From positions 1 through 46,160 of IMG/VR virus record IMGVR_UViG_3300046028_001430: a DNA stretch of 46,160 bases. One strand, 5' to 3'. A program made the translations under genes and the position numbers. This DNA is from a virus. The stretch's first letter is position 1, and every line of letters begins with the position of its first letter. Shown here in pieces: positions 1 to 19,894 of this stretch. The notes below the pieces were generated by a model. The model worked only from the letters and a program-made list of their open reading frames with translations. It ran no database searches and had not been told where the DNA came from.

Positions 1-476
1 ATTGGGCAATGAATGATTGCTACAGTACAACATACCCAAATCAAAGTTCATATCAAGCCTGGCGAGCTGGATTCCGTGAAGGTGTTAAGATGTGCTTGGA
101 TCGTGGCACAAAGCCAAGCCTTGGTGAATTTGAGCGACGTGTACACGCACGCAACTATGATCACTTGAGCATATGGCACAATGTGGGCATGGATGTAGAG
201 AATGGTGACTGGGCTATGTATGGTGCTAAACTAGGCACATATATGACCATGATTACGGATTGGGACTACAGAGAAGTACAGGACTTTGATGCACTGAATC
301 GTATCTGGGAGCAAAACAAAGTATTAAATCTAGTAGAAGAATGTAACGAAATGTCACATACATTAAGTGTAAAATTAGGATTGCCTGCTCCGCATTTTAC
401 AGCGGCGCAGAGTAGATTTTTCAAACATCACTACAAGAGCGTATTTAAGAACAAAGGTATAATGTCGAGAGAATGA
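1..476 (+). CDS. C-terminal part of a repeat-family protein (5' truncated)
   Basis: The frame is open from the window edge and the first ATG is at base 9, so the true start probably lies upstream. The visible part contains a block (SSYQAWRAGFREGVK, then ALNRIWE) that matches the C-terminal end of the 802-residue protein encoded at the far end of this operon (TPYQAWRSAFRECAK). The two proteins are therefore paralogues sharing a C-terminal domain, and this entry is most likely the last 150 or so residues of a longer protein. Its TGA stop overlaps the next ATG (ATGA), indicating translational coupling to the SGNH gene. No enzymatic motif is visible and the function is unknown; association with glycosyltransferases is inferred from neighbours only. 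Confidence 0.75.
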   Translation, partial: WAMNDCYSTTYPNQSSYQAWRAGFREGVKMCLDRGTKPSLGEFERRVHARNYDHLSIWHNVGMDVENGDWAMYGAKLGTYMTMITDWDYREVQDFDALNRIWEQNKVLNLVEECNEMSHTLSVKLGLPAPHFTAAQSRFFKHHYKSVFKNKGIMSRE

Positions 477-1345
477 GATTACACGATACTAATTTAGTAA
501 AGTATTTTTCATATATCCCAGAAGTTTGGCGAACTTATCCTGTTTATCCATATAATTTCATTGATCGAAATTCAAATACATTAGTGGTTACCATTGGTGA
601 CAGCTGGACATTTGGTGCTGATATTTGTCTAGATGATTATGCAATGTCTCAGGAAAGATTAGACAAGATGTATGGAAACATCGTTGCATCTAACTTGGGT
701 GCCGACTTCTTAAGCCTGGGACAGAGTGGTACTTGTAATTTATATATAATTAATAAAATAACAGAATTAGACACCCTTATTCCGCAATTGGATTATACTA
801 ATATTATAATCATATGCACATTTACCGAAGCATGTCGAACATTCGATGGACCGTTTGACAAACACAACGATTATGTCACGTGGTTTAGTAACCAAACATT
901 TGATTCAGTTGATAAGTTTGATTCTATTATAAAATATCATAATGGACTACAACAGGATTCAATAGTTGAATTAGCTGCAAAATATCAACACGTTAAAGTA
1001 ATAGTGGGTACTAACTTTGTTGATCCTATTGGCATGAATCCAGCTATAACAATCTTATCTAAAAGTTGGCTGCAGGTATACAGCGAACAAATAATTAATC
1101 AAGAATATCTCGGTCATTGTTATATTATGTCGCATTGGGTATTGGACAAACTGCCCGGAATCATTACTGGATTTAAACCAGATATAGATCGAACTTTATT
1201 ATTGCAGTGGATGTGTGGATTAACTGAATCAGCAATGACACGAAAACAATTAGTATCAGACTCCTGTTATTTTAGAGGAATCAATCATCCACTTGCTGAA
1301 GGTCATCGAGTATGGGCTGATTATCTATTAGAGCAACTGCAATGA
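473..1345 (+). CDS. SGNH/GDSL-type hydrolase
   Basis: A 290-residue protein with a block I motif GDSWTFG at residues 42-48, carrying the nucleophile serine, and a C-terminal NHPLAEGH segment near residues 271-278 that fits the block V histidine region of SGNH hydrolases. These enzymes are esterases or O-acetyl hydrolases, often acting on glycans, and some relatives transfer acyl groups. The aspartate of the usual DxxH motif is not obvious, so activity is inferred. There is no signal peptide, so it should act in the infected cell. It begins in an ATGA overlap with the preceding gene and ends in an ATGA overlap with a glycosyltransferase. It is one of five SGNH-like proteins in the window. Confidence 0.75.
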   Translation: MRLHDTNLVKYFSYIPEVWRTYPVYPYNFIDRNSNTLVVTIGDSWTFGADICLDDYAMSQERLDKMYGNIVASNLGADFLSLGQSGTCNLYIINKITELDTLIPQLDYTNIIIICTFTEACRTFDGPFDKHNDYVTWFSNQTFDSVDKFDSIIKYHNGLQQDSIVELAAKYQHVKVIVGTNFVDPIGMNPAITILSKSWLQVYSEQIINQEYLGHCYIMSHWVLDKLPGIITGFKPDIDRTLLLQWMCGLTESAMTRKQLVSDSCYFRGINHPLAEGHRVWADYLLEQLQ

Positions 1346-2307
1346 ATACGTATACACTACAATTAGAAAATGATCAGTTGCACAATATTACTCCATTTAT
1401 TAAATTCTGCCGTGATCACGAACATACAGATATTAAGTTAATTGTAAATCAAGAATCACATTGCTTGCAATTTTGTGGAGTGTATGCAATACTCGATTTA
1501 TTTACATTTACCTCAGTTACTATTGTCACTGCTAATGCTGTTGAATGCCACGATAGATATAGAATTGTTATTAATTGGGCATATTGGTTAAAACAATCTA
1601 GAAAATTTAAAACATCAAATGACTATACGTGGAATCAAACAAAAATATTTGGATGTTTTTACGGAAGACCTAGTGCACCTCGGGTTGGCATTGCAGGCCA
1701 TTTAGCGCAACATTATAATGACAAAAGTTTATTACAATTAAGATTTAACACAGACAGTGAAGACACACGCAAGTTAGTTGATATACAAAAACTATTTGCC
1801 TGGGATACAACTGGCGCAGCTAAATTAGATCAGTTAGTACAAAATAAAGAACAATATTTTCAACCTATACCTGCATACGAGTACACCACTGGTAGTTATG
1901 ATTACAATAGTGATCTTAATAATCTATACAAAAATATTTTTGTAGATATTGTAGTTGAAGCTACGACTTTAGGTAATACATTTTATCCTACTGAAAAGAT
2001 TGCACGTGCAATATTGTGTAGAAAACCTTTTATTGTCATGGCATCTAAATTTTATCTTGGCTATTTAAAACAAATAGGATTTAAAACGTTTGATGAATAT
2101 TGGCCCGAGCTATATGATAACGCAGATGGTAAAGCACGATATCTTGCTATCTTAGAATTAATTGATCGTCTGGCAAAATTATCAACAGCAGAGTTGGTAG
2201 AGTTAAATATTAAAATGCAACACACTATAGAATATAATCGTCAGTTATTAATAGCTCAACAATATAACAAGCAGGTTACAAGAATCATTCCGCATTATGA
2301 AAACTAA
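1342..2307 (+). CDS. Glycosyltransferase, GT-B / fucosyltransferase-like C-terminal domain
   Basis: A 321-residue protein whose second half carries the pattern typical of GT10-like and related viral glycosyltransferases: an acidic residue in VVEATT (about 203-208), TEKIARAILCRKPFIV (217-232) and GFKTFDEYW (246-254), followed by a YD pair. In that fold this region binds the nucleotide-sugar donor. The N-terminal half is divergent, with FYGRPSAPR near 107-114. It overlaps the SGNH gene before it by ATGA and the first radical SAM gene after it by 11 bases, so it belongs to the same transcript. Donor and acceptor cannot be deduced. A transferase acting on a cell-surface or virion glycan is the most likely role. 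Confidence 0.65.
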   Translation: MNTYTLQLENDQLHNITPFIKFCRDHEHTDIKLIVNQESHCLQFCGVYAILDLFTFTSVTIVTANAVECHDRYRIVINWAYWLKQSRKFKTSNDYTWNQTKIFGCFYGRPSAPRVGIAGHLAQHYNDKSLLQLRFNTDSEDTRKLVDIQKLFAWDTTGAAKLDQLVQNKEQYFQPIPAYEYTTGSYDYNSDLNNLYKNIFVDIVVEATTLGNTFYPTEKIARAILCRKPFIVMASKFYLGYLKQIGFKTFDEYWPELYDNADGKARYLAILELIDRLAKLSTAELVELNIKMQHTIEYNRQLLIAQQYNKQVTRIIPHYEN

Positions 2308-3691
2308 AAGCGACTTTATGTCAACGGCAGAAGAAATGAAGGACAAGTTAGGTCCTGCACTCTGCTTGGCTAAATGGCAACAGGTAAGTCTACACTTGCC
2401 TACAGGACTTACTAATAGTTGCTATCATCCACCGTTACATGAAATTGATAGTGCACCGCTAGTGTTTAACCCGGGTGCCTTACACAATACAGCACATAAA
2501 AAACAACAGCGTAAACTTATGTTAGAGCAACAACGTCCAACAGAATGTAGCTACTGTTGGAGTGCAGAAGACAATAAGCAACTAAGTGATAGACACTATC
2601 GTAGTGGTGAGCCATGGGCAGCTGAACACTACGAAACTATAGTAAATGCACCTTGGGATCAAGACGTTGTACCAAGTTATGTTGAAGTAAACTTCAGTCA
2701 CGGCTGTAACCTAGCCTGTAGCTATTGCAGTCCACAGTATAGTACAGAGTGGGGCAAAGATATTGACCGATGGGGAGCATATCCTACTAGCACTCCACAC
2801 AATGCACCTGAACATTTTGAAGGCAGACGTAAGCCTATTCCTGTACGTGCGGAAAATCCCTATGTAGAAGCATTTTGGCGTTGGTGGCCAGAACTGTACG
2901 GCAGTTTAAAACACTTCCGTATGACGGGTGGCGAACCCCTGATGGATAAGAATACGCATCGTGTGTTTGATTACATACTTGCCCTGCCTAAGAGTGATCT
3001 ACACGTTGACGTAACCAGTAACTTTAGTGTGGATAGTAATCTGTTTAAGAAATACATAGATAAAGTTAAGCAACTATGTGAAGGTGAACGCATTGAACAT
3101 TTTATGCAGTATGTTAGCCTAGACACAGGCAACAGCGAGCATGCAGAATATATTCGCGACGGTCTACATTATTTTAGATGTATGTCTTATGCGCATCAAT
3201 TTCTAACTGACATTCCTTATCGCAATAGTCTAACGTTTATTATCACAATGAATAATTTAAACATACTAGGATTGCGACAATTACTTGAATCGATATTAGA
3301 GATGCGTAAAAAATACAGTTCGACCTATCAACGTGTATGGTTTGATACACCGTTGTTACGCAGTCCAACATATCAAAGTTTACAAATATTACCAGCAAGT
3401 TATGTTCGCATATTAGAAGATGTTGTTACCTTTATGCGAGCAAATCAGGCAGACGAAACAGCTGATAACTTCGAAGGCTTTAAAGATTATGAAATACAAC
3501 GTATGGAACGTAATGTTGAATGGATGAAACAAGGTTGCGAACTTGCCGCAGACTATGTTACAATACAAAGAGCAGACTTTTATAAGTTCTTCAATGAATA
3601 CGATAAACGCAGAGGATTAATATTTTTGGAAACGTTCCCACAAATGAAAGAGTTTTGGCAGGAGTGCAAATATCATGCCGAAAATAGCTAA
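2297..3691 (+). CDS. Radical SAM protein with N-terminal twitch domain (module 1)
   Basis: A 464-residue protein. The SAM-binding 4Fe-4S motif is C137-x3-C141-x2-C144 (CNLACSYC), and the SAM-contacting glycine motif GGEP is at 211-214. Ahead of the barrel lies a cysteine set C23, C42, C84, C87 that fits an auxiliary-cluster twitch domain placed N-terminally, as in the N-twitch radical SAM family common in phages. The reaction is unknown; such enzymes generate a 5'-deoxyadenosyl radical and modify peptides, sugars or cofactors. It is the closest relative of the next gene (shared H-N-T-A/P-x-K-K region and CSYC). Alternative starts at 2318 (MSTAEE) or 2336 cannot be excluded because no strong ribosome-binding site precedes 2297. 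Confidence 0.88.
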   Translation: MKTKSDFMSTAEEMKDKLGPALCLAKWQQVSLHLPTGLTNSCYHPPLHEIDSAPLVFNPGALHNTAHKKQQRKLMLEQQRPTECSYCWSAEDNKQLSDRHYRSGEPWAAEHYETIVNAPWDQDVVPSYVEVNFSHGCNLACSYCSPQYSTEWGKDIDRWGAYPTSTPHNAPEHFEGRRKPIPVRAENPYVEAFWRWWPELYGSLKHFRMTGGEPLMDKNTHRVFDYILALPKSDLHVDVTSNFSVDSNLFKKYIDKVKQLCEGERIEHFMQYVSLDTGNSEHAEYIRDGLHYFRCMSYAHQFLTDIPYRNSLTFIITMNNLNILGLRQLLESILEMRKKYSSTYQRVWFDTPLLRSPTYQSLQILPASYVRILEDVVTFMRANQADETADNFEGFKDYEIQRMERNVEWMKQGCELAADYVTIQRADFYKFFNEYDKRRGLIFLETFPQMKEFWQECKYHAENS

Positions 3692-5051
3692 CGAAACAGA
3701 TTTAGAATATAAGCGCAGAGTAATTGACATTAAGTCAGAATCATTCTGCGCGGCTAAATGGTATAACGCTACTATATGGTTAGGGTCAGGACAGACTACC
3801 AGCTGTCATCACCCATTGCCGCATGCTATTGACCTAGAAGCAATTAAAACTAATCCCAGTGCTATCCATAACACTCCGCAAAAGAAATTAGAGCGTAAAC
3901 AGATGCAGGTAGGTGATCGTCCTAGCGGATGCGAATACTGCTGGAAGATTGAAGACATGTATAAAGATCCTAAGTATGATGGGGTTGATGTACCAACTCC
4001 TATTAGTGATCGTGTGTACAAAACTGTAATTTATAACGATGAGGATTTAAACTATGCATACAATTTACCTTCGGATCAAGATGTTAACCTCCGGACTTTG
4101 GAAATCGCCTTTGACCGCACTTGTCAGTTTGCTTGTAGCTACTGTAACCCTGCATTTAGCACTACTTGGGTTAAAGACATTCGGAATAACGGTGCCTACA
4201 CCGATTTGGTGTCGGATGGACGTAACCACTTTACTCATACTCATGATAGCAATCAATTGTTTAAGCTCGATGAAGTTAATCCTTATGTCGAAGCGTTCTT
4301 CAAATGGTGGGAAACAGACCTGCACAAGACGTTAAAAGAACTGCGCATCACAGGTGGCGAACCGTTAATGTCAGGATACACCTGGCGTCTAATAGAATGG
4401 TTTCAAAAGAACAAAGGACAAAGTACTACACGTCTTGCTATCAATAGTAATTTAGGATTTGAGAAAGATAAATTAGAGAGGTTATTAGATGCTACACAAG
4501 GTATCGAATTGGATTTGTACACTAGCAATGAATCGTGGGGCCGTCATGCAATGTATATACGTGATGGCTTGGATTGGGATCAATGGGTTAGCAATGTACA
4601 GTATCTATTGGATAGCAAGAAACTGCGAGGCCTACATGTTATGTGTACCATCAATGCTCTATGCTTACTAAGCCTTACTGATTTGTTATGGATGATAGTA
4701 AAACTTAAACGCACTTATGGCAAGGATGCAATTAACTTTAGTCTAAACATCTTACGATTCCCTAGTTTCCAAAGTCCGTTGATCTTGCCTATGGAGATAC
4801 GTGAACAAATGGCCGAAGACCTACAACAATTTGGCGAAGCGGCACACAGTGAACTACACGAATCTGAATATAATCAATTGACTAGATTGATTGAGTACTT
4901 ACAGACTGTAGACAGCCCACACAGTGGAGCACTATCACGTGAGATTTTACAACGTGACTTTAAGAACTTTTATCAGCAATACGACCAGCGGCGTGGTCTA
5001 GACTTTAAATATACATTTACACAATTAGCGGACTGGTACGACACACTATGA
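3675..5051 (+). CDS. Radical SAM protein with N-terminal twitch domain (module 2)
   Basis: A 458-residue paralogue of the preceding protein. The radical SAM motif is C150-x3-C154-x2-C157 (CQFACSYC) with GGEP at 227-230; putative twitch cysteines are C25, C44, C86 and C89. Both proteins share a CAAKW/CLAKW opening, a C-x-HP motif and an HNT-x-x-KK stretch, so they appear to be a tandem duplication that has diverged strongly. An AGGAG sequence about ten bases upstream supports the start. It overlaps the gene before by 17 bases and ends in an ATGA overlap with the next gene. The substrate is unknown. Retention of all motif cysteines argues that this copy is active, not a relic. Confidence 0.88.
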   Translation: MPKIANETDLEYKRRVIDIKSESFCAAKWYNATIWLGSGQTTSCHHPLPHAIDLEAIKTNPSAIHNTPQKKLERKQMQVGDRPSGCEYCWKIEDMYKDPKYDGVDVPTPISDRVYKTVIYNDEDLNYAYNLPSDQDVNLRTLEIAFDRTCQFACSYCNPAFSTTWVKDIRNNGAYTDLVSDGRNHFTHTHDSNQLFKLDEVNPYVEAFFKWWETDLHKTLKELRITGGEPLMSGYTWRLIEWFQKNKGQSTTRLAINSNLGFEKDKLERLLDATQGIELDLYTSNESWGRHAMYIRDGLDWDQWVSNVQYLLDSKKLRGLHVMCTINALCLLSLTDLLWMIVKLKRTYGKDAINFSLNILRFPSFQSPLILPMEIREQMAEDLQQFGEAAHSELHESEYNQLTRLIEYLQTVDSPHSGALSREILQRDFKNFYQQYDQRRGLDFKYTFTQLADWYDTL

Positions 5052-7606
5052 GCGATGAGCCAAGCAAGAAATTAACAGTACATCATAAAAATCACAATTA
5101 CAATACTCGTAAACCTGTGTATATACATGAAGATGATTTAACAGAAGATCATACATATAAATTAATAGAAAGTAAACATTTCTGTATGATACCATGGACA
5201 CACATGCACAGTATCCCTGACGGTCGTGCATACCCTTGCTGTCTGGGTGAAATGCATTTGCCAATTGGCAACTTTAAAGAAAACACCATGGCCGAAGTAT
5301 GGAACGGCACTCCATATAAACAGATGCGCATAAACATGCTTGAAGACAAGCCGAGTAAAGAATGTACTCGTTGTTACGAACAAGAAGACAACGGGTTCTT
5401 TAGTATGCGTAACAGTCAAAACAAAAACTTTGGCCATCATATTGCCCTGGCAGATAAAACTAATGCCGATGGCAGTTTAGATGACTTTAAACTACGCTAC
5501 TATGACATACGCTTCTCTAATCTATGTAACTTCAGTTGCCGCACCTGCGGTAGCTTGTTCAGCAGCAGTTGGTTTGCGGAAGAAACTAAACTGTTTGGTA
5601 AATTAAATCATCCGCAAATTATGTTTTCTGGTAAAGATAAAAATGATATGTGGGAACAGATGCAGGAGCATATTCCGTACCTCGAACAGATATACTTTGC
5701 TGGTGGCGAACCACTGATCATGGAAGAACACTATCGCATCTTAGAAGAACTAGTGCGTCGTGAAATGTTCCATGTTAGACTAGTCTATAACACAAACTTT
5801 AGTCATATGCGTCTTAAAGATAAGATGGTATTTGAGTATTGGAAACTGTTTGATGTGGTAAGTGTAGGTGCTAGTTTAGATGATTCATATCTTCGTGGAG
5901 AATACATTCGCAAGGGTCAAGACTGGGCAGAAACAGTAGAAAATCGTCGCAAAATGATTGAAATTTGCCCCAATGTTGACTTTTATGTTAGTAGTACAGT
6001 CAGTATACTCAATGCCTGGCATTTAACAGAATTCCATAAAGAATGGGTCGAGCTTGGCCTGATTAAAGCCAAGGATTGGAACGTAAACATTTTACAGAGT
6101 CCAGAGCGTGATCGTATTGACGTGTTGCCTATACAATTTAAAGATCGTATTAAGCAACGAGTCGAAGAACATATTGCATGGCTAGAACCACAGGATCAAT
6201 TACAGCGAGCAGTGTCCGGTTATCGAGCTATTATCACATTTATGTATCAAGATGATAAGAGTCATTTATTAAAAGAATTCTTTAAGGTCAATGATCAAAC
6301 AGACGAGATGCGTAAGGAAACTTTTGAAGAAGTATTCCCTGAGTATCAAGAGTTGCGTGATCATTTAGGCATTAACAAGACGCATGATAATATCTGTATG
6401 TTACCCTGGGTTAGTATAGAAGCAAGTCCAGTGGGTACAGCTCGTCCATGTTGTCTAGCCAAAGACGAAATTACCAAGAGTGATGGTACTCCGTATAAAC
6501 TTAGAGAAAGTTCATTGGCTGAGATTTATAATAGTGAATACATGCAGGACCTGCGCCAACAATTCCGCCGCGGTGAAAAACCAGCGACGTGTAATCGTTG
6601 TTGGAGTGAAGAAGATGCTGGTATAGTTAGTAAACGTATCAACAGTAGAATTAGACTTAAAGAGTTTTATCCTATTGTAGACTGGCGTAATGATACACCT
6701 GATCAACTATGGTTCATTGATCTTAAACTGGGTAATATTTGTAATCTTAAATGTCGTATCTGCGGCAGTTGGAGCAGTAGTAAATGGGCCAAGGAAGAAA
6801 TTGACTACGAAGCTATAAAATATAAAGACGTGGAAGGATATGACCGTAAGCAACACGGAGCATACATGTTCCTACAAGAAGGTACGTGGCCCAGAGACAA
6901 TGATATATTTTGGGATAACTTAAAAGCACTACTGCCAAACATTAAGTATTTTGAATTCACTGGTGGTGAACCATTCTTAATTGAAGAACACTTTAAACTA
7001 TTGCGTTATGCAGTGGAGCACGGTTACAGTAGTCGTATTGATATACATTACAATACCAACGGCACTGTGTATCCTAACGATGAAGAAGTTGCCCTATGGA
7101 GTAAATTTAGAAATGTTGAAATTGCAGTTAGCATTGACAACACCGAAGCACGTTTTGAATATGAACGTTATGGCGCAGTGTGGGAAGAAGTAACAGCCAA
7201 TGTTGTGAAATTTAATGCCATGCGCACTGATTTAATTGCCACACAGGTCTGCATGACTGTGAACATACAAAATGTTTATTATCTACCTGAACTATGTGAT
7301 TGGGTCAATACCCAGGATTTTGACATGGTGCATTTTAATATGCTACATGACCCACATGTTATGTGTATTAACCGTATGACACCTGCGGCGCAACGATTAG
7401 TTATAGATCGATTAACTGCTTATCCATTCACAGTTAAACATCGTGTTGAGATCGATAAAATAATTCAGTTTATTGAAAACGGCTCGGGCAGTGATGGCAC
7501 TGAATTCCTACGTAAGATGCAGGAAACTGATCAATACCGTAATCAAAGCATGTTAACCACACATAGAGAAATTGCACTAGCAATGGGATATCATGACACC
7601 ATCTAA
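5048..7606 (+). CDS. Double radical SAM protein: two twitch + radical SAM modules fused
   Basis: An 852-residue protein built from two complete modules. Module A has twitch cysteines C46, C64, C65, C106 and C109, the motif C160-x3-C164-x2-C167, and GGEP at 219-222. Module B begins near residue 445 with C450, C468, C469, C515 and C518, then C565-x3-C569-x2-C572 and GGEP at 639-642. Each module alone has the length of the single-module proteins beside it, so this is a fusion or in-frame duplication. Both active sites look intact, which would give one polypeptide two SAM clusters and two auxiliary clusters. The order CxxPW, PCC, CxRC, CNxxC is the same in both halves. Substrate unknown. Confidence 0.9.
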   Translation: MSDEPSKKLTVHHKNHNYNTRKPVYIHEDDLTEDHTYKLIESKHFCMIPWTHMHSIPDGRAYPCCLGEMHLPIGNFKENTMAEVWNGTPYKQMRINMLEDKPSKECTRCYEQEDNGFFSMRNSQNKNFGHHIALADKTNADGSLDDFKLRYYDIRFSNLCNFSCRTCGSLFSSSWFAEETKLFGKLNHPQIMFSGKDKNDMWEQMQEHIPYLEQIYFAGGEPLIMEEHYRILEELVRREMFHVRLVYNTNFSHMRLKDKMVFEYWKLFDVVSVGASLDDSYLRGEYIRKGQDWAETVENRRKMIEICPNVDFYVSSTVSILNAWHLTEFHKEWVELGLIKAKDWNVNILQSPERDRIDVLPIQFKDRIKQRVEEHIAWLEPQDQLQRAVSGYRAIITFMYQDDKSHLLKEFFKVNDQTDEMRKETFEEVFPEYQELRDHLGINKTHDNICMLPWVSIEASPVGTARPCCLAKDEITKSDGTPYKLRESSLAEIYNSEYMQDLRQQFRRGEKPATCNRCWSEEDAGIVSKRINSRIRLKEFYPIVDWRNDTPDQLWFIDLKLGNICNLKCRICGSWSSSKWAKEEIDYEAIKYKDVEGYDRKQHGAYMFLQEGTWPRDNDIFWDNLKALLPNIKYFEFTGGEPFLIEEHFKLLRYAVEHGYSSRIDIHYNTNGTVYPNDEEVALWSKFRNVEIAVSIDNTEARFEYERYGAVWEEVTANVVKFNAMRTDLIATQVCMTVNIQNVYYLPELCDWVNTQDFDMVHFNMLHDPHVMCINRMTPAAQRLVIDRLTAYPFTVKHRVEIDKIIQFIENGSGSDGTEFLRKMQETDQYRNQSMLTTHREIALAMGYHDTI

Positions 7607-8678
7607 TACATTTTGTTCAGCACCATGGATGAATAGGTATATTAATCCTATCGGTGAAATGTCACCTTGTTGTTTTACTACTAATATTGAAACTGAAGCA
7701 GACATAGCAGGTCTTAAACAATCATTTATAGACGGAGAACAAGCCCTAGCTTGTAAGTATTGCTGGCATAACGAACAGCATGCGATGCCTAGCCCAAGAC
7801 TTGATTTCAATGCCGCCGCTGGTGGTAAACTATCATTTGATGACGATGTATATTCTACGGCAGAAGTTAATCAGTTGTCGATTAACATAGGCAATTATTG
7901 TAATGCCGAATGTATCATATGTAATGGTATGTCTAGTAGCAAACGAAATAATTGGTTAAAGCATCATAATAGTAAATTTCATAAAATTCATACTATACAA
8001 CGTGCTAACGATAACATTGATGATTTACCGTACTTGAACATCAAGACGCTGACTTTGCTCGGTGGCGAACCGACTATACATCCATCTACTTATAAAATTT
8101 TAGATTACTATATTAATAAAGGAATCTCAAAAAATATTTCTATTAGTCTAAATACAAATGCAAGTAAATTAGATCCGAGTCTATTAGATAAATTAAAATT
8201 ATTTGACATCCTGTCGATTACCCTGAGCATAGACGGCACCGGGTCATATTTTGAATATCAGAGAAGACCAATTAAATGGAAAATTGCAAAACAGGTAGCC
8301 GAACAATGGATGACTGCCGCCGACAATATTGTAATAAATTATGTTGTCACAGCAGTTAGTATATGGGGCTTTAATGAATTTCTCACATGGTTTTCTACAT
8401 TGCCACAGTATGTATTAGATAAAAAACCTACGGTAATTTTAACTCCTGTGGGAAATAATCCTTGTTTATCACTAGCTGTATTAAACGACGAACAACGAAC
8501 TAATTGGATTGATCAAGCAACTGATCACCCACTTAAACAACAGATAATTAATATCATTAACTCTACGGTATATGATAAATCATTGTTACCTCAACTAGCT
8601 GACAAAGTCAAACTTGAAGATACCACGTCGAAAATAAAATTTGCAGATATATTCCCCAATTGGGATTTAAATGGATAA
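7593..8678 (+). CDS. Radical SAM protein with N-terminal twitch domain (module 5)
   Basis: At 361 residues this is the shortest of the series. Putative twitch cysteines are C8, C26, C27, C54 and C57; the radical SAM motif is C103-x3-C107-x2-C110 (CNAECIIC) and GGEP is at 157-160. The N-terminal region between C27 and C54 is compressed relative to the other modules. The start lies 14 bases inside the double-module gene, and the end overlaps the next gene by 8 bases. Its local base use looks more AT-rich (many Lys, Asn and Ile codons) than the fused gene before it, which may reflect a separate origin; this is an impression, not a measurement. Function unknown. Confidence 0.87.
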   Translation: MTPSNTFCSAPWMNRYINPIGEMSPCCFTTNIETEADIAGLKQSFIDGEQALACKYCWHNEQHAMPSPRLDFNAAAGGKLSFDDDVYSTAEVNQLSINIGNYCNAECIICNGMSSSKRNNWLKHHNSKFHKIHTIQRANDNIDDLPYLNIKTLTLLGGEPTIHPSTYKILDYYINKGISKNISISLNTNASKLDPSLLDKLKLFDILSITLSIDGTGSYFEYQRRPIKWKIAKQVAEQWMTAADNIVINYVVTAVSIWGFNEFLTWFSTLPQYVLDKKPTVILTPVGNNPCLSLAVLNDEQRTNWIDQATDHPLKQQIINIINSTVYDKSLLPQLADKVKLEDTTSKIKFADIFPNWDLNG

Positions 8679-9960
8679 ACCGCAAACACTTTGTCTAGCA
8701 CCTTGGGTACATACATATCTTAGTCCGCAGACTGAGCGACGTATGTGTTGTGCTAGTCGCGAGCCTGCGCAGAACTTTGAACAGTATATAGATACCAAGG
8801 CCGGCACTGGTAAGTATATTCCTATTACACTTGAAGAACATTGGAATAGCGAGCACATGAAGTCAGTGCGCCAGCGTATGATGGCAGGTGAAACACTACC
8901 TGAGTGCGAAGTGTGCAATGACAAATTGTTAAACACATCCGTTTACCGTAGTTATTTTGATAGCATGTTTGGTCATAAGTATGATAGTATATGGGACACA
9001 ACAGACGCAGACGGTGCTACCACAATGCGCCCAGTCAGTTGGGATTATCGATTTAGCAATCTATGTAACTTCAAGTGTCGTATGTGCGGTGATATGTTGT
9101 CTAGCGCATGGGAAACTGAACAGAGACAACACAACATGATCAACTGGAGTAATCCAAAGAATAATTGGATGCTACCAGAAATAAGAGATCAAATATCAGC
9201 ATTCCAAGACAATCAAATTGAAAAAGAGTTTGCTGAAGCTGTTGAAAATCATCAAGTAGAAGAAGTATATTGGGTAGGTGGAGAGCCACTAATGTATGAA
9301 CAACATTGGCGTTATATGCGACGCATTGTTGAATTAGGAGATGGTAAAAATGTCTATGCTCGTTACAACACAAACCTCAGCCGTGTCACTTACCGTGGGG
9401 CCAATCTGTATACTGATATTCTTAGTGGGCTACGTGATTGGCAGATATGTGCAAGTCTTGATGGTACGCAAGAAATTGGAGAATATATTAGAACAGGACT
9501 TGACTATAATTCATGGCTTACAAACTTCCGTGAAGGAGTTAGAATTGCAAGTCACAGACGCCAAATGCGAATTGACTTCACTCTCACACTGCCCGGCATG
9601 TTTGAAGTCACAAACATTACCCAGCTTGCTGAAAAAGAAAACGTAGATATCTTGGCTAAGGTTGTTTTTAGCTTTAGCCCTGATATTATCCTTAGTCCAC
9701 TTGCACTCCCACGCGAGTTATTACATCCATGGTTAGATGAGCTAATCCCACAAACTTCTGGAGCAATGCAGGATATACTTGTGCAGTTAAAATCACGACC
9801 AACGTTTGACGAGCAATGGCCCGATATATACAAAGTAAGTCTTGCAGAGGGCAAGGCTCGTGTGCTACGACTAGAAAGTATACGTAATGATACACTTACA
9901 CTAGCAGACATATTAAAAGAGAGACCGGCTGTATATGAATGGTACCAAAACATTGCTTGA
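8671..9960 (+). CDS. Radical SAM protein with N-terminal twitch domain (module 6)
   Basis: A 429-residue protein. Twitch cysteines C8, C26, C27, C79 and C82 precede the motif C132-x3-C136-x2-C139 (CNFKCRMC) and a GGEP loop at 203-206. It resembles the first module of the fused protein most: RFSNLCNF is shared, and both have a W-N-x-x-x-x-K-x-x-R segment between the cysteine pairs (HWNSEHMKSVRQ here). It is the last of the consecutive radical SAM genes and overlaps the next, non-radical-SAM gene by 26 bases. The N-terminal CLAPW motif is the usual signature of these phage enzymes. Substrate unknown. Confidence 0.88.
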   Translation: MDKPQTLCLAPWVHTYLSPQTERRMCCASREPAQNFEQYIDTKAGTGKYIPITLEEHWNSEHMKSVRQRMMAGETLPECEVCNDKLLNTSVYRSYFDSMFGHKYDSIWDTTDADGATTMRPVSWDYRFSNLCNFKCRMCGDMLSSAWETEQRQHNMINWSNPKNNWMLPEIRDQISAFQDNQIEKEFAEAVENHQVEEVYWVGGEPLMYEQHWRYMRRIVELGDGKNVYARYNTNLSRVTYRGANLYTDILSGLRDWQICASLDGTQEIGEYIRTGLDYNSWLTNFREGVRIASHRRQMRIDFTLTLPGMFEVTNITQLAEKENVDILAKVVFSFSPDIILSPLALPRELLHPWLDELIPQTSGAMQDILVQLKSRPTFDEQWPDIYKVSLAEGKARVLRLESIRNDTLTLADILKERPAVYEWYQNIA

Positions 9961-11035
9961 TCAACTTGAAATTGATCTAAAGAATGATGCAACAGGAGAA
10001 TTACTGACAGTATATATTGATGTATTTGACAGTTCGCTCGGCCGTAAATGGTTATCGGCATTAAACAATCTAATAGAAAAGAACTATCACCTTGAGAAGA
10101 ATTTTTGTTTTCATGGATTTGTTGAATCTGAACGTAATGCAGAATATATAACTGATCAAATTAATCAATCAATTGCAGCAATTAATCAGGCAAATCTCGG
10201 CTATCATATCAACGATCATTTCACGGTGGCTAATACCATAGTGCCGGGAGAGATTGGCGAATTTCTCGAAGGCGGAAAACTAGTACACGATAAATTAAAT
10301 CAACTACATAGATATTTCGAAGATCTGCAGGGAGTTAGCGGTCACATGTCGGGTTATTACAATCAAGCTGATGACAGTACAAAATGGCATATCCGACAGT
10401 TAAATTTATTATGTCACGAATACGAATCTCTAGTACTAAGCATGCGCAAAGCTGTGCATGCACCCGAATGGCGTCGTCCTAGTCAATTGATGTGTTGGTT
10501 AAATGCACCACGCTTTGTATTAGACGCGGACGATTTTGAATTATTTGGAATTGAAAGTTTAAATCGTCCGGCTGGCGGCGTATTTGTAGGAGTTAATAAA
10601 GCTATTGGCAAACATCATTATGAAGTCTTTCGTGATGAAGGCGGTGCAGGCCATAGGATTGATGAATTGACTACATCAGCAATGCGCTCGCAAACAGAAG
10701 CAGCAGGTGATTTTGATATTGAATGGGCAATTAGTCCGGGCCAGTACGATTGGATGAAAAAAGAATTAGCAGATTTTACTCAATGGTTAATAGACAATGG
10801 ATTCGACCCCGACGATAAATCATTAACTATAGGACACCCACAGGTAGGACAGGTTGATCTACAGCGAACATTCGGATCACAAGACCATAATGTAATATGG
10901 TCACAACTGGGCCTACATCTAAACGTATATAAGTTGAGAACTAGTCAAGCGTCTGCCATTTATGAATATAATTGGTCAGATTCTGATTATCGAGATCAAC
11001 AGATACTACAGATTAAACGAGGACAAATAGCCTAA
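9935..11035 (+). CDS. Conserved phage protein of unknown function next to radical SAM array
   Basis: A 366-residue, mostly soluble protein with no signal peptide. It matches no enzyme family I can name. Visible features are a His/Glu-rich middle (KLVHDKLNQLHRYFEDLQG near 273/3 of the frame, then RQLNLLCHEYESLVLSMRK), a GVNKAIGKHHYEVF segment and a C-terminal stretch GHPQVGQVDLQ. Similar proteins, as I remember them, occur in marine T4-like phages beside radical SAM and glycosyltransferase genes; that is recall, not a search. It is translationally coupled to the radical SAM gene before it (26-base overlap) and shares one base with the next SGNH gene (TAATG). A partner or substrate of the radical SAM enzymes is possible but unproven. 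Confidence 0.7.
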   Translation: MNGTKTLLDQLEIDLKNDATGELLTVYIDVFDSSLGRKWLSALNNLIEKNYHLEKNFCFHGFVESERNAEYITDQINQSIAAINQANLGYHINDHFTVANTIVPGEIGEFLEGGKLVHDKLNQLHRYFEDLQGVSGHMSGYYNQADDSTKWHIRQLNLLCHEYESLVLSMRKAVHAPEWRRPSQLMCWLNAPRFVLDADDFELFGIESLNRPAGGVFVGVNKAIGKHHYEVFRDEGGAGHRIDELTTSAMRSQTEAAGDFDIEWAISPGQYDWMKKELADFTQWLIDNGFDPDDKSLTIGHPQVGQVDLQRTFGSQDHNVIWSQLGLHLNVYKLRTSQASAIYEYNWSDSDYRDQQILQIKRGQIA

Positions 11036-11853
11036 TGATTTTATTATCCGGCGGCGATAGTTTTACCTATGGTAGTGAACTTGCTGATGGAGTGTCGCCA
11101 CATGACCCTAACGGTACAGAACCAGCATACCCGATTGTCAGTCAGAGTACTTTTCCTGCACTACTAGCTCGAGACTTTGGTATGCACTATGAATGTGCAG
11201 CCTACCCGGGATTTAGTAACAGTGCAATTCGACGTACTGTAATGAATAGCTGTGAAAGTCTGTTAGACGTAGGGTTGGTAATAGTAACATGGACATTTCC
11301 TGGTAGATACGAATTTAGATTTGATTATAACACAGGAGAACGATGGGGTAACTGGTATAATTTAAACCCTTGGTCTATAATAGATAATGTAGAAGACATA
11401 AAAAAAGAATTTAAAACTGATAATACAACAATATTACAACATCATACTAATCATTTGCTACGAGCCAAACAAACAGGCACAGCAGATTTTGCTAAAACAT
11501 TTTACAAACATGTTGGTTCAACTGCCTATTGGGAAACATACAATTCACTAGTAGAAATAATTATGTTACAGCAATACCTACAGTTAAAAAAGATACCATA
11601 TATATTTTCCATGGTTGATGAAGCATTGTTAAATAACTGTACATATCTAATGAATGATGAAAATATAATAACATTGTATAATCAACTTGATTTCGATCGA
11701 TGGGCAACCTTTCCGAATAATCAAGGATTTTTTACATGGGCTCGAGATTTTAAATATCCATTTGCCACAACTCATCCATTAGAACCAGCGCACATTGATG
11801 CTGCAAAGTATATTCGGGAGAACTACAATGAATTGGTTAAAGACTTTATATAA
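11035..11853 (+). CDS. SGNH/GDSL-type hydrolase
   Basis: A 272-residue protein with a block I motif GDSFTYG at residues 7-13 and a C-terminal THPLEPAHIDAAKYI segment providing the block V histidine. A GFSNSA segment near residue 60 suits the block II/III oxyanion region. It has no signal peptide. Esterase, deacetylase or acyltransferase activity on a glycan is the usual role of the family. It starts in a TAATG overlap with the conserved unknown before it, and a 33-codon reading frame starts inside its last 26 bases. A second, shorter SGNH protein follows immediately after that small gene, and the two share GDSFTYG. Confidence 0.75.
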   Translation: MILLSGGDSFTYGSELADGVSPHDPNGTEPAYPIVSQSTFPALLARDFGMHYECAAYPGFSNSAIRRTVMNSCESLLDVGLVIVTWTFPGRYEFRFDYNTGERWGNWYNLNPWSIIDNVEDIKKEFKTDNTTILQHHTNHLLRAKQTGTADFAKTFYKHVGSTAYWETYNSLVEIIMLQQYLQLKKIPYIFSMVDEALLNNCTYLMNDENIITLYNQLDFDRWATFPNNQGFFTWARDFKYPFATTHPLEPAHIDAAKYIRENYNELVKDFI

Positions 11854-11929
11854 CAGAATTAAATTAGAAATAACTTATCGTAAAAAATTAAAAGCATTAC
11901 GTAAGCGTGATCCATTTATCTATAAGTAA
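11828..11929 (+). CDS. 33-residue basic microprotein
   Basis: A short reading frame (MNWLKTLYNR...KRDPFIYK) starting at ATG 11828 inside the end of the SGNH gene and stopping at TAA 11927-11929, whose last A is the first base of the next ATG. It exactly fills an otherwise empty 75-base gap and is coupled at both ends. The peptide is very rich in Lys and Arg with an amphipathic look, and ends in RDPFIY. From memory, small proteins ending in (K/R)RDPFIY recur in marine phages; I cannot verify this here. Its role is unknown; nucleic acid, membrane or enzyme binding would all fit the charge. Confidence 0.65.
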   Translation: MNWLKTLYNRIKLEITYRKKLKALRKRDPFIYK

Positions 11930-12579
11930 TGCGAATATTAACCATTGGCGATAGCTTTACCTACGGCGATGAACTAGTTGATATTCAGCAGGCATGGCCG
12001 TATGTATTACAAAATAAGTTATCCTGTGAGTTAACAAATTTAGGAAAGCCTGCTACAGGTAATACCAGCATGGTTCGAAATGTAGTAGAACATGCTAGAG
12101 ATTATGATTTAATTATCGTCGCCTGGAGTCATTTTGCCCGTATTGAATTTGCCGACGAGCATGGCATTTTTGATACATGGCCCGGACATCGTGGCGTGGC
12201 GTTTACTAATAATATTGCATATAGAATGGAGTTGTTAAATTATATAAATCGTCACCACAACGATGAATATTTGTATAAACAATATCTATTGAATATAATT
12301 TTATTACAAACTTATGCAGATCACCTAGGCAAAAAATTGCTTATGCTTAATACGCAGATTAATTGGAATAAACTATCAGAAGATTCATACATGGAAAAGT
12401 TTGCATCTACGATTAATCGAATCGATACTCAATATTTTATTGGATGGCCAAATGAATCGATGATGGAGTGGACATTTGGCACTCCCAAAGGACCAAACGG
12501 TCACTTTTTAGCAGCAGGACATACAATAGTAGCGGATAAAATTTATGAATATATTAGGCATCTCGGCTGGGTTTCATGA
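11929..12579 (+). CDS. SGNH/GDSL-type hydrolase
   Basis: A compact 216-residue SGNH protein: GDSFTYG at residues 7-13 (nucleophile serine), a GNTSM motif in the block III position, and a C-terminal GPNGHFLAAGH segment supplying the block V histidine. It is shorter than the other SGNH proteins in the block but keeps all recognisable blocks. The start is fixed by the TAATG overlap with the microprotein gene. It overlaps the carbamoyltransferase by 35 bases. Presumably it hydrolyses or transfers an acyl group on the same glycan or metabolite handled by the neighbouring carbamoyltransferase; this is inference from context. Confidence 0.75.
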   Translation: MRILTIGDSFTYGDELVDIQQAWPYVLQNKLSCELTNLGKPATGNTSMVRNVVEHARDYDLIIVAWSHFARIEFADEHGIFDTWPGHRGVAFTNNIAYRMELLNYINRHHNDEYLYKQYLLNIILLQTYADHLGKKLLMLNTQINWNKLSEDSYMEKFASTINRIDTQYFIGWPNESMMEWTFGTPKGPNGHFLAAGHTIVADKIYEYIRHLGWVS

Positions 12580-14044
12580 CGCAGCTGTAACAGTCATTCA
12601 AAATGACGAAATTGTATTTGCTGGGCATAGTGAACGCTACAGCAAAATTAAACATGACCCAAACTTATGTTCAAGTTTACTAGCAGATGCAATTTTAGAA
12701 TCGGGTGCATATCCACATCAAATAGCCTACTATGAAAGACCTTGGGTTAAGAAGACACGTCAACTCTACGCTGGCCAATACAGTGAGCTAACCAAAGGCT
12801 GGAGTGTACGCAATATGATTTCCAAGGCTGCACCGTGGTTCAATCATCGAGACATTCCACTTAAAACATACAATCATCATTTAAGTCATGCGGCCGCAGG
12901 CTTTCAAACAAGTCCGTTTGACAATGCAACAGTTGTGGTAATTGATGCTATCGGTGAGTGGGACACTATTAGTATTTGGACAGCAAAGTATGTCAATGGT
13001 AAGGCACAATATACAAGAGTATGGCGCCAATTATACCCACACAGTATCGGCTTGATGTACAGTGCGTTTACCAAAGAAGTTGGACTTAAACCCTTAGACG
13101 AAGAATACATTCTAATGGGCATGGCTGGTTGGGCACAAAAAAATACAGGACGATTGAGTGACGAACTTTCTAATTGGTTAGTTGATCACGAGTTTGATCT
13201 GACATTAAAACACAATCTACATATCGGCCTGCCCGAGAATGACATGCGAGCTCGCTGGAACGACTTCGAAATTGCCGCGGCAGCTCAGACATTAGCGGAA
13301 CAATTGATACATAATATTATGTACAAGGCAATGAAGTTAGCACCTAACCGTAATTTAGTATATGCTGGTGGCGTTGCTCTTAATTGTAGTGCTAATAGAG
13401 ACTTGGGAGAATACTTTGATGAAATATGGATTATGCCTAATCCTGGTGATGCTGGTAGCAGCCTTGGAGCGGCGGCCTTGGCACACGGGGGTCGACTTAA
13501 TTGGAATAATGCTTTTCTTGGCCATAATATTAGTGGCCCTTATCCTGTCACCGATGTTGTCTCCGAATTAATGACCAATAAGATCGTTGGTGTTGCTAGC
13601 GGTCGTGCAGAATTTGGACCAAGAGCATTGGGTAATCGTAGCCTATTGGCGGACCCGCGCGGTCATGATATTAAAGATCGAGTTAACTTAATTAAACATA
13701 GACAAAAGTTTAGACCTTTTGCTCCTATCATACTTGAAGAATTCGCCGATGAATATTTTGAAATGCCCAACGGCTTTGCCACAAGCAGATATATGCAGAC
13801 AACTGCAAAATGCTTGCGTCCTGATGAATTTCCTGCTATAATACATGTTGATGGTACAAGTCGAGTACAGACTGTTCCACGAGATGGCAGTGGTATACGT
13901 GAACTATTATGCTTATGGTATACTTGGACGGGTTGCCCGATGTTGCTTAATACAAGTTTAAACATCAGAGGCGAGCCCATGGTAAATGATCGCGCTGACG
14001 CAGATCGCTTTGAAGAATTATACGGAGTTCGTGTTTTATCATGA
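12545..14044 (+). CDS. Carbamoyltransferase, NodU/CmcH family
   Basis: A 499-residue protein with the family landmarks: an N-terminal ILGISAGFHDAAV phosphate-binding start, HHLSHAAAGF at 111-120 (metal and carbamoyladenylate site), the YAGGVALNCSANR motif of the ASKHA-fold middle, and the C-terminal YrdC-like domain signature GRAEFGPRALGNRSL around 356-372, ending with LLNTSLNIRGEP. These enzymes transfer a carbamoyl group from carbamoyl phosphate, via carbamoyl-AMP, to a hydroxyl on a sugar or nucleoside-like acceptor. It is at the short end of the family (550-600 is common) but both domains appear complete. It lies between an SGNH gene and an APS-kinase-like gene, consistent with tailoring of a glycan. 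Some phage relatives carbamoylate modified nucleotides, so DNA modification is an alternative. Confidence 0.88.
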   Translation: MNILGISAGFHDAAVTVIQNDEIVFAGHSERYSKIKHDPNLCSSLLADAILESGAYPHQIAYYERPWVKKTRQLYAGQYSELTKGWSVRNMISKAAPWFNHRDIPLKTYNHHLSHAAAGFQTSPFDNATVVVIDAIGEWDTISIWTAKYVNGKAQYTRVWRQLYPHSIGLMYSAFTKEVGLKPLDEEYILMGMAGWAQKNTGRLSDELSNWLVDHEFDLTLKHNLHIGLPENDMRARWNDFEIAAAAQTLAEQLIHNIMYKAMKLAPNRNLVYAGGVALNCSANRDLGEYFDEIWIMPNPGDAGSSLGAAALAHGGRLNWNNAFLGHNISGPYPVTDVVSELMTNKIVGVASGRAEFGPRALGNRSLLADPRGHDIKDRVNLIKHRQKFRPFAPIILEEFADEYFEMPNGFATSRYMQTTAKCLRPDEFPAIIHVDGTSRVQTVPRDGSGIRELLCLWYTWTGCPMLLNTSLNIRGEPMVNDRADADRFEELYGVRVLS

Positions 14045-14442
14045 GAATATTAATTTGTGGTCTGCCAGGCTCGGGTAAAACTACACTAGCACATGCATTA
14101 TCAACATTGATAGATTGTATATGGTACAATGCTGATGCAGTTAGAAGCAAGTATAATGATTGGGATTTTTCTGAAGAAGGCAGACTACGTCAGGCAACAC
14201 GTATGAAAAAGTTAGCCGATGACAGCAACGGTCACATTGTATGTGACTTTGTTGCTCCTACCAAAGAGATACGTGATATCTTTGATGCTGACTATGTTGT
14301 ATGGATAGATACAATTAAACTAGGTAGATTCGAAGATACAAATAAAGTATTTGAGCCACCGGAGCATTACGATATACGGGTAACAGAACAAGATGCCGCA
14401 CGTTGGGCAGCTATTATTGCCAAGGAAATAAATGAAGCCTAA
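14041..14442 (+). CDS. P-loop kinase resembling adenylylsulfate kinase
   Basis: A 133-residue P-loop protein with Walker A GLPGSGKTT at 7-15. The pattern YNADAVR followed by D-W-D-F-S-x-x-G-R resembles the D-G-D-N-x-R / GFS-x-x-x-R pattern of APS kinases (CysC), and VVWIDT plus FEPP near the end also fits that family. It is 40-60 residues shorter than cellular APS kinases, so the lid may be reduced. A sulfate-activation role (forming PAPS) would suit a glycan-tailoring cluster, but no sulfotransferase or ATP sulfurylase is visible in the window, so it may phosphorylate another small substrate. It overlaps the carbamoyltransferase by 4 bases (ATGA) and the deaminase by 11. Confidence 0.65.
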   Translation: MRILICGLPGSGKTTLAHALSTLIDCIWYNADAVRSKYNDWDFSEEGRLRQATRMKKLADDSNGHIVCDFVAPTKEIRDIFDADYVVWIDTIKLGRFEDTNKVFEPPEHYDIRVTEQDAARWAAIIAKEINEA

Positions 14443-14854
14443 ACACCAAACAGCACACATGCGAGCCGCACATATCTACGCTGAACTAAGCACAGCACGT
14501 AGACTTAAAGTGGGCGCACTTGTAGTTAAAGATGATAGAATTGTATCAATTGGCTACAACGGTATGCCCAGTGGATGGGACAACAACTGTGAATATGATT
14601 TAGAAGATGGAAATATTAAAACTAGACCGGAGGTATTACATGCAGAAACTAACGCACTTGCGAAATTGGCTAGAAGTACTGAGTCTGGTCTTGATGCTGA
14701 TTTATTTGTTACTCATAGTCCTTGCTTGGATTGTGCCAAGCTCATATATCAGAGTGGTATTAAACGAGTATTCTATGCTACTGCTTACCGCGATAATTCC
14801 GGGATTAATTTCCTTAAATCTTCGGGTATTGACGTAGAGCAACTAGATGTTTGA
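14432..14854 (+). CDS. Zinc-dependent cytidine/deoxycytidylate deaminase family protein
   Basis: A 140-residue protein with the zinc and catalytic motif HAE at 70-72 and PCLDC (C98, C101) of the CDA fold, together with GYNGMPSG at 41-48, which is characteristic of dCMP deaminases of the ComEB/T4 Cd type. The expected reaction is dCMP to dUMP, feeding the thymidylate synthase encoded on the other strand. It lacks the N-terminal extension and extra zinc site of T4 Cd. Its position among sugar-tailoring genes, away from thyA and the DHFR gene, is unusual but may be incidental. It overlaps the gene after it by 8 bases. Confidence 0.82.
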   Translation: MKPKHQTAHMRAAHIYAELSTARRLKVGALVVKDDRIVSIGYNGMPSGWDNNCEYDLEDGNIKTRPEVLHAETNALAKLARSTESGLDADLFVTHSPCLDCAKLIYQSGIKRVFYATAYRDNSGINFLKSSGIDVEQLDV

Positions 14855-19256: not shown

Positions 19257-19894
19257 TTAATACAACGATACCGAACTTCGAAAGATTCTGCATAGGTACT
19301 ACCCAACATCTGTCCACGTAGTGCAGATTGGCCTTTGATATTGTGCAGTAATGTATCACTAAAGTAGCTATCATAACATTGGATAGCTTGAATTTTTGTA
19401 TCGATGTATGGAGCAATGTCTACAAATATATTAGGTACGAATTCCTTGTTACGATTAGTATAAGGTCCGCCTTCCATGCACCATAGTTCGCCTTGATAAC
19501 GACGTAGACTACTGTTGACGATATGGAAAGTATTTACATGATCCTGATGATGATCGCCCGGGCTGTGTGTGATGACTAAATCATACTCTTTGCCCTGCAT
19601 GTAGGAATCAAGTTGTTCTACAGTGGCACTATCCCATTCCAATACAGGGCGACCAGTTGCATCTAATCGATTATTGAGAAAGGTAAACTTAGTACCAATG
19701 ACCCGTTCACTTGCTGAATATTCAGCAACCATTTTATCCTTGTCACGCCACACGCTTGGACGCGGCACATTGTCATTACGTGCTACTACAATATCAAATT
19801 CTGCACCTTGATCACGGAATTTTAATAACGTACCCAAGCAACCTAATTCAATATCATCTGGATGTGCGCCCACTGCTAAAATACGTTTATACAT
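19253..19894 (-). CDS. PIG-L/LmbE family deacetylase
   Basis: A 213-residue protein with the zinc-binding motif AHPDDIE at residues 10-16 and a second metal motif SPGDHHQDH near residues 110-119. The family removes N-acetyl groups from GlcNAc-containing lipids, mycothiol precursors, bacillithiol precursors and sugar nucleotides. No signal peptide is visible, so it acts in the cytoplasm, probably on the amino sugar produced by the neighbouring aminotransferase or on a lipid- or nucleotide-linked GlcNAc. It is coupled to genes on both sides by short overlaps. Confidence 0.88.
   Translation of the reverse strand: MYKRILAVGAHPDDIELGCLGTLLKFRDQGAEFDIVVARNDNVPRPSVWRDKDKMVAEYSASERVIGTKFTFLNNRLDATGRPVLEWDSATVEQLDSYMQGKEYDLVITHSPGDHHQDHVNTFHIVNSSLRRYQGELWCMEGGPYTNRNKEFVPNIFVDIAPYIDTKIQAIQCYDSYFSDTLLHNIKGQSALRGQMLGSTYAESFEVRYRCIK

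Follow-up and report, generated by a model that had tools for sequence, protein, structure and literature searches.

We analysed the window, a stretch of viral DNA of 46,160 bases that makes up IMG/VR virus record IMGVR_UViG_3300046028_001430 and is probably a fragment, and found that at 2297-9960 five overlapping open reading frames (ORFs) on the plus strand encode six intact N-twitch radical S-adenosylmethionine (SAM) modules. These are M1 (2297..3691), M2 (3675..5051), the fused modules M3a and M3b (5048..7606, 852 amino acids, aa), M4 (7593..8678) and M5 (8671..9960). In a profile search all six modules pass the curated cut-off of 170 bits of the NCBIfam model NF033640 (N_Twi_rSAM, twitch domain-containing radical SAM protein), with scores of 273.5 bits for M1, 286 for M2, 393 and 334.5 for the fused modules, 197.5 for M4 and 285.3 for M5; as a control, 14 of 14 well-known genomes match the model weakly, below the cut-off, and none above it. 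A six-way alignment contains 19 invariant columns, including four N-terminal cysteines, the C-x3-C-x2-C motif and GGEP, yet the other five modules are only 21-27% identical to M3a. An earlier note on this DNA had described six complete modules, each with its own N-terminal cysteine set, that had diverged without losing their motif residues, and these results confirm that description. The N-terminal module region matches the Pfam SPASM domain, over the cut-off only in the M3 protein. Auxiliary clusters of SPASM/twitch enzymes usually lie C-terminal of the radical SAM domain, and the N-terminal match therefore indicates that the usual domain order is swapped in these modules. The ORFs overlap by 4-17 nucleotides (nt) within the array and by 11 and 26 nt with the flanking ORFs, which makes the translational coupling proposed by the earlier note plausible. 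In a structure search with the AlphaFold2 (AF2) model of M5 (predicted local distance difference test, pLDDT, 87.7), SkfB (Z 11.5) and SuiB (Z 11.3) were tied with MoaA, BlsE and anSME, the Z scores of the five differing by less than one unit, and the search singled out no substrate class.

Next, we investigated the conservation of the array among viral contigs, on records of up to 374 kb. Genes were called with a custom ORF script, and modules were labelled orthologous at an identity of at least 42%, a cut of our own choosing. From 488 relatives of M1 and at least 600 of M5 the best 80 loci each were taken, so the counts describe close relatives; the M3 protein as query gave 17 viral loci. 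Among the 80 M1 loci, 17 do not have both M1 and M5 visible, and the remaining 63 span the array, with 58 distinct M1 sequences of 66-100% identity and several contigs near-identical to the window. The order M1-M2-M3a-M3b-M5 is exact in 62 of these 63 contigs, and in the sole exception (L128) M3b occupies the expected position just below the 42% cut; it is among the one to three modules below the cut that 17 of the 63 loci hold. Homologues thus occur together in other phage genomes and in a conserved order, a point on which the earlier note had made its proposal depend. A relative of M4 at 42% identity or more was observed in only five of the 63 loci, with three distinct such modules, and M4 is therefore an optional extra, judging from these contigs, to a conserved core of five modules rather than six. 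The multi-step array of the earlier note is supported, but with five core members. Both M3a and M3b are visible in 63 of the M1-brought loci, a set that differs by one locus from the 63 showing M1 and M5; the two modules are fused in 16 of them and encoded by separate genes in the other 47.

When taking a census of distinct module sequences from related contigs (score of at least 100, length above 1000 nt), we find that the core modules keep CxxxCxxC and GGE in 549 of 549 cases and the N-terminal four-cysteine pattern in 546, whereas among 57 accessory modules the corresponding counts are 57, 57 and 51. Of 21 pairs formed by a window module and a relative, 20 have a ratio of nonsynonymous to synonymous substitution rates (dN/dS) of 0.03-0.15, many of them with dS values above 1, and one pair is saturated. 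In a FastTree tree of 154 modules, a single edge sets each core module apart from the remaining four, supported at 0.798 for M3a, 0.95 for M3b, 0.953 for M1, 0.962 for M2 and 1.0 for M5; four genes from two bacterial loci discussed below (L189 and L190) fall inside the M2 side of its separating edge. M5 is highly conserved, with 72-86% identity to 27 phage homologues. By these comparisons, the modules are old paralogues under purifying selection and not recent copies with decayed motifs, an outcome that the earlier note had held against its own proposal. Recent tandem duplication with decay was accordingly rejected, on the grounds of low mutual identity, intact motifs, purifying selection and separate tree branches. 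Additionally, three loci (L019, L020 and L022) carry a second, longer array of 8-10 modules, with relatives of M1, M2 and M5 at 40-47% identity.

Upon examining the genes downstream of M5 in the 65 loci that reach far enough past it, we observed a set of constant or frequent partners; those listed with both end positions lie on the plus strand of the window. Directly after M5 lies a 366-aa companion protein (family f5, 9935..11035), present in 65 of 65 loci and with 48 invariant columns in 46 sequences. Its AF2 model (pLDDT 87.4) gave no Foldseek match at E <1, and the similarity to cyclophilins, of up to Z 7.4 at a root-mean-square deviation of 3.4 over 141 residues, lies in the range expected without a true relative. 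It is followed by two SGNH-like proteins of family f2 (11035..11853 and 11929..12579), which share conserved GDS, N and H blocks and belong to a family present in 50 of the 65 loci, the latter with a weak DUF6071 match (E 0.0011). The O-carbamoyltransferase (f7, 12545..14044; Pfam PF16861 at 3.2e-47 and PF02543 at 1.7e-39) is again found in 65 of 65 loci. Further along are a small P-loop kinase-like protein (14041..14442, APS_kinase/AAA_18 match; 45/65), a dCMP-deaminase-like gene at 14432 that was named by eye (24/65), and an 802-aa protein (14847..17255; 49/65) with diverged internal repeats, found by piecewise comparison, and a C-terminal domain (aa 578-729) related to the upstream family f6 (E 3.6e-19). 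Family f3, described below, is encoded downstream of M5 in 44 of the 65 loci. On the minus strand, the interval 17215..22761 holds sugar-nucleotide type enzymes named from Pfam: two epimerases, two DegT aminotransferases, a PIG-L deacetylase and a Gfo/Idh oxidoreductase. This set resembles a nucleotide amino-sugar pathway and could possibly supply a sugar to the array, to which it is loosely linked, with the families at 20747 and 21799 in 16 and 14 of the 65 loci. Elsewhere in the window, 42359-43042 encodes a GTP cyclohydrolase-like protein (phrog_2197, E 4.1e-76).

The region upstream of the array is visible in 66 loci. Families f1 and f8 occur there in all 66, f6 and f9 in 65, f10 in 64 and f4 in 59. 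The window begins within f6, a protein resembling GT-A glycosyltransferases (GTs) whose C-terminal part lies at 9..476 (+) and which is 298 aa at full length (L104 7284-8180), its start lying outside the window. It is followed on the same strand by an optional SGNH-like protein with a GDS motif recognised by eye (473..1345), whose family is upstream of M1 in six of the 66 loci, and by f3 (1342..2307; 24 of 66 loci), which we presume to be GT-like from a C-terminal motif and which has no Pfam or PDB match. Pfam likewise gave no SGNH or glycosyltransferase match for 473-1345, 1342-2307, 11035-11853 and 11929-12579, so that of the flanking genes listed by the earlier note the carbamoyltransferase and the repeat protein hold, whereas the SGNH and glycosyltransferase labels derive from visual recognition of motifs. 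Ten of 26 f6 members match Pfam Glyco_tranf_2_3 below the cut-off (best E 0.001), one of 25 f1 members matches a transferase family, hhalign found no link between f6 and f1, and PDB sequence-profile searches with f6, f1, f3 and f5 gave nothing useful. Of the tail-fibre genes f4 and f9, the former resembles a virion structural PHROG, and one of two f4 members tested carries a Peptidase_G2 IMC domain.

When f6 was used as the probe, with a profile built from array-bearing loci, 93 loci were obtained (the best 80 of at least 597, plus 13), some of them on contigs already counted in the array set. N-twitch modules lie downstream in 75 of the 77 loci with at least 3 kb of downstream sequence, and the fibre genes (f4/f9) together with f1 lie upstream in all 90 with enough upstream sequence. 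Only L245 and L246 depart from this pattern: the fibre genes, f1, f6 and a number of SGNH-like genes are retained there, with no radical SAM gene within 6 kb downstream of f6. On the basis of these gene neighbourhoods, the fibre genes, GT-like genes and radical SAM array therefore form one conserved block. Furthermore, a crude hydropathy scan (cut of 1.9 over 19 residues, chosen by us) marked 5 of 1471 genes within 10 kb of 80 arrays as membrane-like, against 10 of 70 in four bacterial loci, which suggests that membrane enzymes are nearly absent near the phage arrays, although no hidden Markov model (HMM) search for exporters or flippases was made in the phages.

The phages themselves appear T4-like: Gp23, the T4-type major capsid protein, is encoded in 14 of 17 array-phage records and the Fe-S carrier family PF01521 in eight, the window record, a fragment, lacking both. 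Among 50,697 isolated-phage records, f6, f5, one f1 and f10 had no tblastn match at 1e-5, the M3 protein had matches in six records, and M5 was matched at only 22-24% identity, in 18 Vibrio phages. For the tail genes f15 and f4, relatives do exist among cultured jumbo phages. In PA5oct, gp357 (f15), gp358 and gp359 (f4) and gp360 (f9) are annotated as detected by electrospray tandem mass spectrometry (ESI-MS/MS), and in Phosso and Atu_ph07, the latter with 131 virion proteins reported (PMC6102473), the f15/f4 relatives are followed within ~1-2 kb by several radical SAM genes. These are not N-twitch enzymes; their best NCBIfam matches stay under the cut-off and include PapB and DynA, which are peptide maturases, and one enzyme is over the cut-off of the SPASM domain model TIGR04085. 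Among them lies a protein of 306 aa in Phosso (XYS97446.1, L326:18628-19548) and 296 aa in Atu_ph07 (L328:19392-20282) with a CHxSCHASCHxSRSRR-type C-terminus, a candidate, from its sequence, for modification of a virion protein in cultured phages in the manner of ribosomally synthesised and post-translationally modified peptides (RiPPs).

Upon scanning bacterial genome contigs, we obtained 20 loci. Five of them (L185-L188 and L195) carry phage tail genes and look like phage contigs inside metagenome-assembled genomes, and L184 was assigned to neither phage nor chromosome. Two others, L189 and L190, are contigs of Bdellovibrionota whose genes, as judged by eye, are those of an ordinary chromosome, and their modules are nearest M1, M2 and M3a, in L190 also M3b and M5. 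The genomes G018, G019 and G020 hold 8, 8 and 19 modules over the cut-off, respectively. In G020 (Bdellovibrionia), 13 of the 19 lie within ~30 kb (L204-L205, C1:738000-777000), in a cluster that also holds an amidinotransferase whose nearest match is inosamine-phosphate amidinotransferase. In the order of G019, 108 of 116 genomes have NF033640 matches at E 0.001, 58 of them over the cut-off, and eight have M5 relatives at 31-47% identity, all eight neighbourhoods of which were examined. In L226 (8244-12832) the M5 relative has glmU on one side and glmS on the other, each scoring above its equivalog cut-off, a placement that hints at UDP-GlcNAc chemistry. The neighbours of the M5 relative in L228 include a carbamoyltransferase, an ABC ATPase and a PqqD-like gene, L227 has an M2-type gene preceded by a PqqD-like gene that stays under the Pfam cut-off, and the remaining neighbourhoods of the eight gave no clear functional hint. 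We also examined four Bdellovibrionota loci (L230-L233) chosen for adjacent PqqD and NF033640 hits; with L228, these are the PqqD hits of that search whose neighbours were checked. In all four an M1/M2-type gene beside PqqD is accompanied by Wzm/Wzt-like genes (checked against the PDB in L230 and assigned by similarity to L230 in the rest), and in two of the four by a carbamoyltransferase. Together with L228, these are five Bdellovibrionota loci with a PqqD-like gene over the Pfam cut-off beside N-twitch modules. In L209, relatives of f6 (43%) and of the 802-aa protein lie upstream of a module.

We propose, as a possible reading that falls somewhat short of probable, that the block encodes a soluble multi-step pathway leading to a carbamoylated, radical-modified glycan on a virion adhesin. 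The pathway would be soluble and presumably expressed with the tail genes. The phage GT-like enzymes (f6, the f1 pair and f3) would assemble a short glycan on the product of one of the tail-fibre genes just upstream (f4 or f9), and M1, M2, M3a, M3b and M5 would afterwards modify it, each at a position of its own and each predicted to use a 5'-deoxyadenosyl radical and an N-terminal auxiliary 4Fe-4S cluster. Capping of the glycan would fall to the carbamoyltransferase and the SGNH-like enzymes, with f5 as an obligate partner. We infer a glycan from the kinds of gene present, which are of carbamoyltransferase, SGNH-like and GT-like type, and from the bacterial contexts, in which M1/M2 types lie in Wzm/Wzt loci. 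A single shared product would be consistent with the constant order and partners, and the virion is suggested as its end location: the tail-gene context and the few membrane-like proteins argue for use in the cytoplasm, the site of virion assembly, and together with the indications of a glycan they lead us to prefer a glycan on a virion adhesin. The detection by mass spectrometry annotated for the f15, f4 and f9 relatives of PA5oct adds to this, and so do the window carbamoyltransferase, whose nearest PDB entries are the antibiotic O-carbamoyltransferases decarbamoylnovobiocin carbamoyltransferase and GdmN, with TobZ further down, and, among the bacterial relatives, the M5 relative flanked by glmU and glmS and the f6 and 802-aa-protein relatives ahead of a module in L209.

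Several observations weigh on the other side. The GT assignments are weak, with f6 below Pfam cut-offs, f1 matched in 1 of 25 members and f3 without a match; the f6 profile is found in only two of ten bacterial genomes with modules, and f5 in one of ten, weakly; and the glmU-glmS placement concerns only one of eight bacterial M5 neighbourhoods. Bdellovibrionota M1/M2-type genes recur beside a PqqD-like protein, a neighbour that points to peptide substrates, and radical SAM genes resembling peptide maturases accompany the related tail module in cultured phages. Finally, the glycosyltransferases of this region have been interpreted in published work as altering the host O-chain (PMC7029224).

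This last interpretation leads to a different destination for the product, namely a host surface polysaccharide (O-chain or capsule) that the pathway would remodel, blocking superinfection, with the lipid carrier and exporter borrowed from the host. Such a role, which we consider unlikely, agrees with the published account of pelagimyophage glycosyltransferases in the same region (PMC7029224), with the export loci of the bacterial relatives and with the sugar-nucleotide enzymes nearby in the window, but it sits poorly with the array genes following tail-fibre genes in 90 of 90 f6 loci and with the scarcity of membrane-like genes, insofar as the hydropathy scan, made without an exporter or flippase HMM search, can be taken as a guide. 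Alternatively, the modules may be RiPP-like maturases that act directly on a virion protein, introducing cross-links, epimers or similar changes, with the sugar-type genes serving a separate purpose. The PqqD partners of the bacterial genes (over the cut-off in L228 and L230-L233, below it in L227) and the SPASM-like, peptide-type enzymes of Phosso and Atu_ph07, beside their ~300-aa CHxS-tail protein, keep this alternative alive, and SkfB and SuiB stand closest to the M5 model, albeit tied with MoaA, BlsE and anSME. It is nevertheless a little less likely still: PqqD (PF05402) was found in none of the 17 phage records, which are possibly fragments, in a search that did not cover other types of RiPP recognition element; the f9 C-termini we looked at have no repeated cysteine-rich tail; and the constant carbamoyltransferase would be left unexplained. 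A crude scan for repeated cysteine-rich C-terminal tails near the arrays returned only six scattered ORFs, which we judged to be chance rather than candidates for a cysteine-rich precursor.

The array might also have no common product and mark a hotspot that collects unrelated radical SAM cassettes. Accessory modules and other genes are inserted between the core modules in some loci, and the cassettes differ between two closely similar pelagimyophages in the published comparison (PMC7029224); but because the module order is fixed, with constant partners across contigs of 66-100% M1 identity and a single tree edge splitting each core module from the others, we regard a hotspot as improbable. 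Hypermodification of DNA or nucleotides, with the carbamoyltransferase acting on 5-hydroxymethylcytosine (5hmC), is more improbable still and close to being discounted. A phage-type carbamoyltransferase is reported to make 5-carbamoyloxymethylcytosine and to co-occur with genes of the thymidylate synthase family and dCMP deaminase genes (PMC8670742), and the window does hold the dCMP-deaminase-like gene at 14432 and a ThyA gene at 23190. We compared the three residues that this paper singles out, in TobZ numbering, mapped by motif spacing onto the 84 readable of 95 phage copies. Position 408, W in TobZ, is V in 78, I in five and A in one and never W, which would favour the DNA substrate, whereas G421 and R423 are kept in 84 of 84 copies, against C and T in the 5hmC enzyme as counted from its printed sequence and motif spacing (PMC8670742), so that two of three classical-type diagnostic residues are retained. 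The window ThyA matches thymidylate synthase models over the cut-off, and carbamoyltransferases of unmodified contigs adjoin glycosyltransferases (PMC8670742). The two classical residues and the ThyA match therefore disfavour DNA modification, whereas the multi-step tailoring that the earlier note proposed, on a glycan, peptide or nucleoside, is supported.

Overall, the ordered row of five enzymes and the sugar-type helper genes that follow the tail-fibre genes are common to many uncultured large bacterial viruses, where they probably add an unusual chemical group to the viral tail itself or to the surface of the host. A bolder version of the virion-adhesin glycan, which we consider doubtful, is an assembly line of radical chemistry devoted to phage adhesins. 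Five N-twitch enzymes acting in sequence would edit the fibre glycan or the fibre side chains themselves and so create binding chemistry that neither host receptors nor competing phages encounter elsewhere. The line would have stayed together as a unit while T4-like phages diverged across many habitats, would have been traded with predatory Bdellovibrionota, and would have a parallel in the peptide-type system of the Phosso/Atu_ph07 tail module. If the proposed decoration is real, it would be a widespread chemical modification of phage particles or host surfaces that standard proteomics and glycomics would miss, made by radical enzymes without an assigned reaction, and it would tie phage tails to the surface-polysaccharide loci of predatory bacteria. 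The function of NF033640 becomes testable, with M5 as a conserved member and with constant partners and candidate substrates named, and L245 and L246, which keep the fibre, f1, f6 and SGNH-like genes without radical SAM modules within 6 kb, offer natural variants for comparison.

That T4-like phages carry cassettes of radical SAM genes in this region has been reported previously; our search of the open-access literature gave no account of the fixed order of five enzymes, of their constant partners or of a link to Bdellovibrionota. A 183-kb T4-like genome carries 12 radical SAM genes and an A-type carrier (PMC5332604), radical SAM cassettes, tail fibres and glycosyltransferases have been placed in a host recognition cluster (PMC7029224), and genes of the moaA/nifB/pqqE family have been listed for a vibriophage (PMC3468402). 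The array phages are likewise large, with cassettes beside tail fibres and glycosyltransferases and with Fe-S carrier genes, but in the portions of PMC5332604 and PMC7029224 compared here a conserved five-enzyme order, constant partners and bacterial relatives are not described. As in NF033640, all six modules combine the N-terminal four-cysteine region with canonical radical SAM motifs, while the model's name gives no reaction and its definition does not include five fixed paralogues in one phage array. SkfB, SuiB, MoaA, BlsE and anSME appear to have the radical SAM domain fold in common with the predicted M5 structure (Z 10.7-11.5), but the auxiliary-cluster cysteines of the present modules are N-terminal, in contrast to the C-terminal ones of SPASM/twitch enzymes. 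With the NodU, TobZ and NovN types of O-carbamoyltransferase, the window enzyme shares both Pfam domains and two of the three classical residues, and unlike them it belongs to a phage block linked to tail genes. Lastly, the Phosso and Atu_ph07 clusters likewise lie downstream of f15/f4 relatives, and they differ in having non-N-twitch enzymes and different accessory genes.

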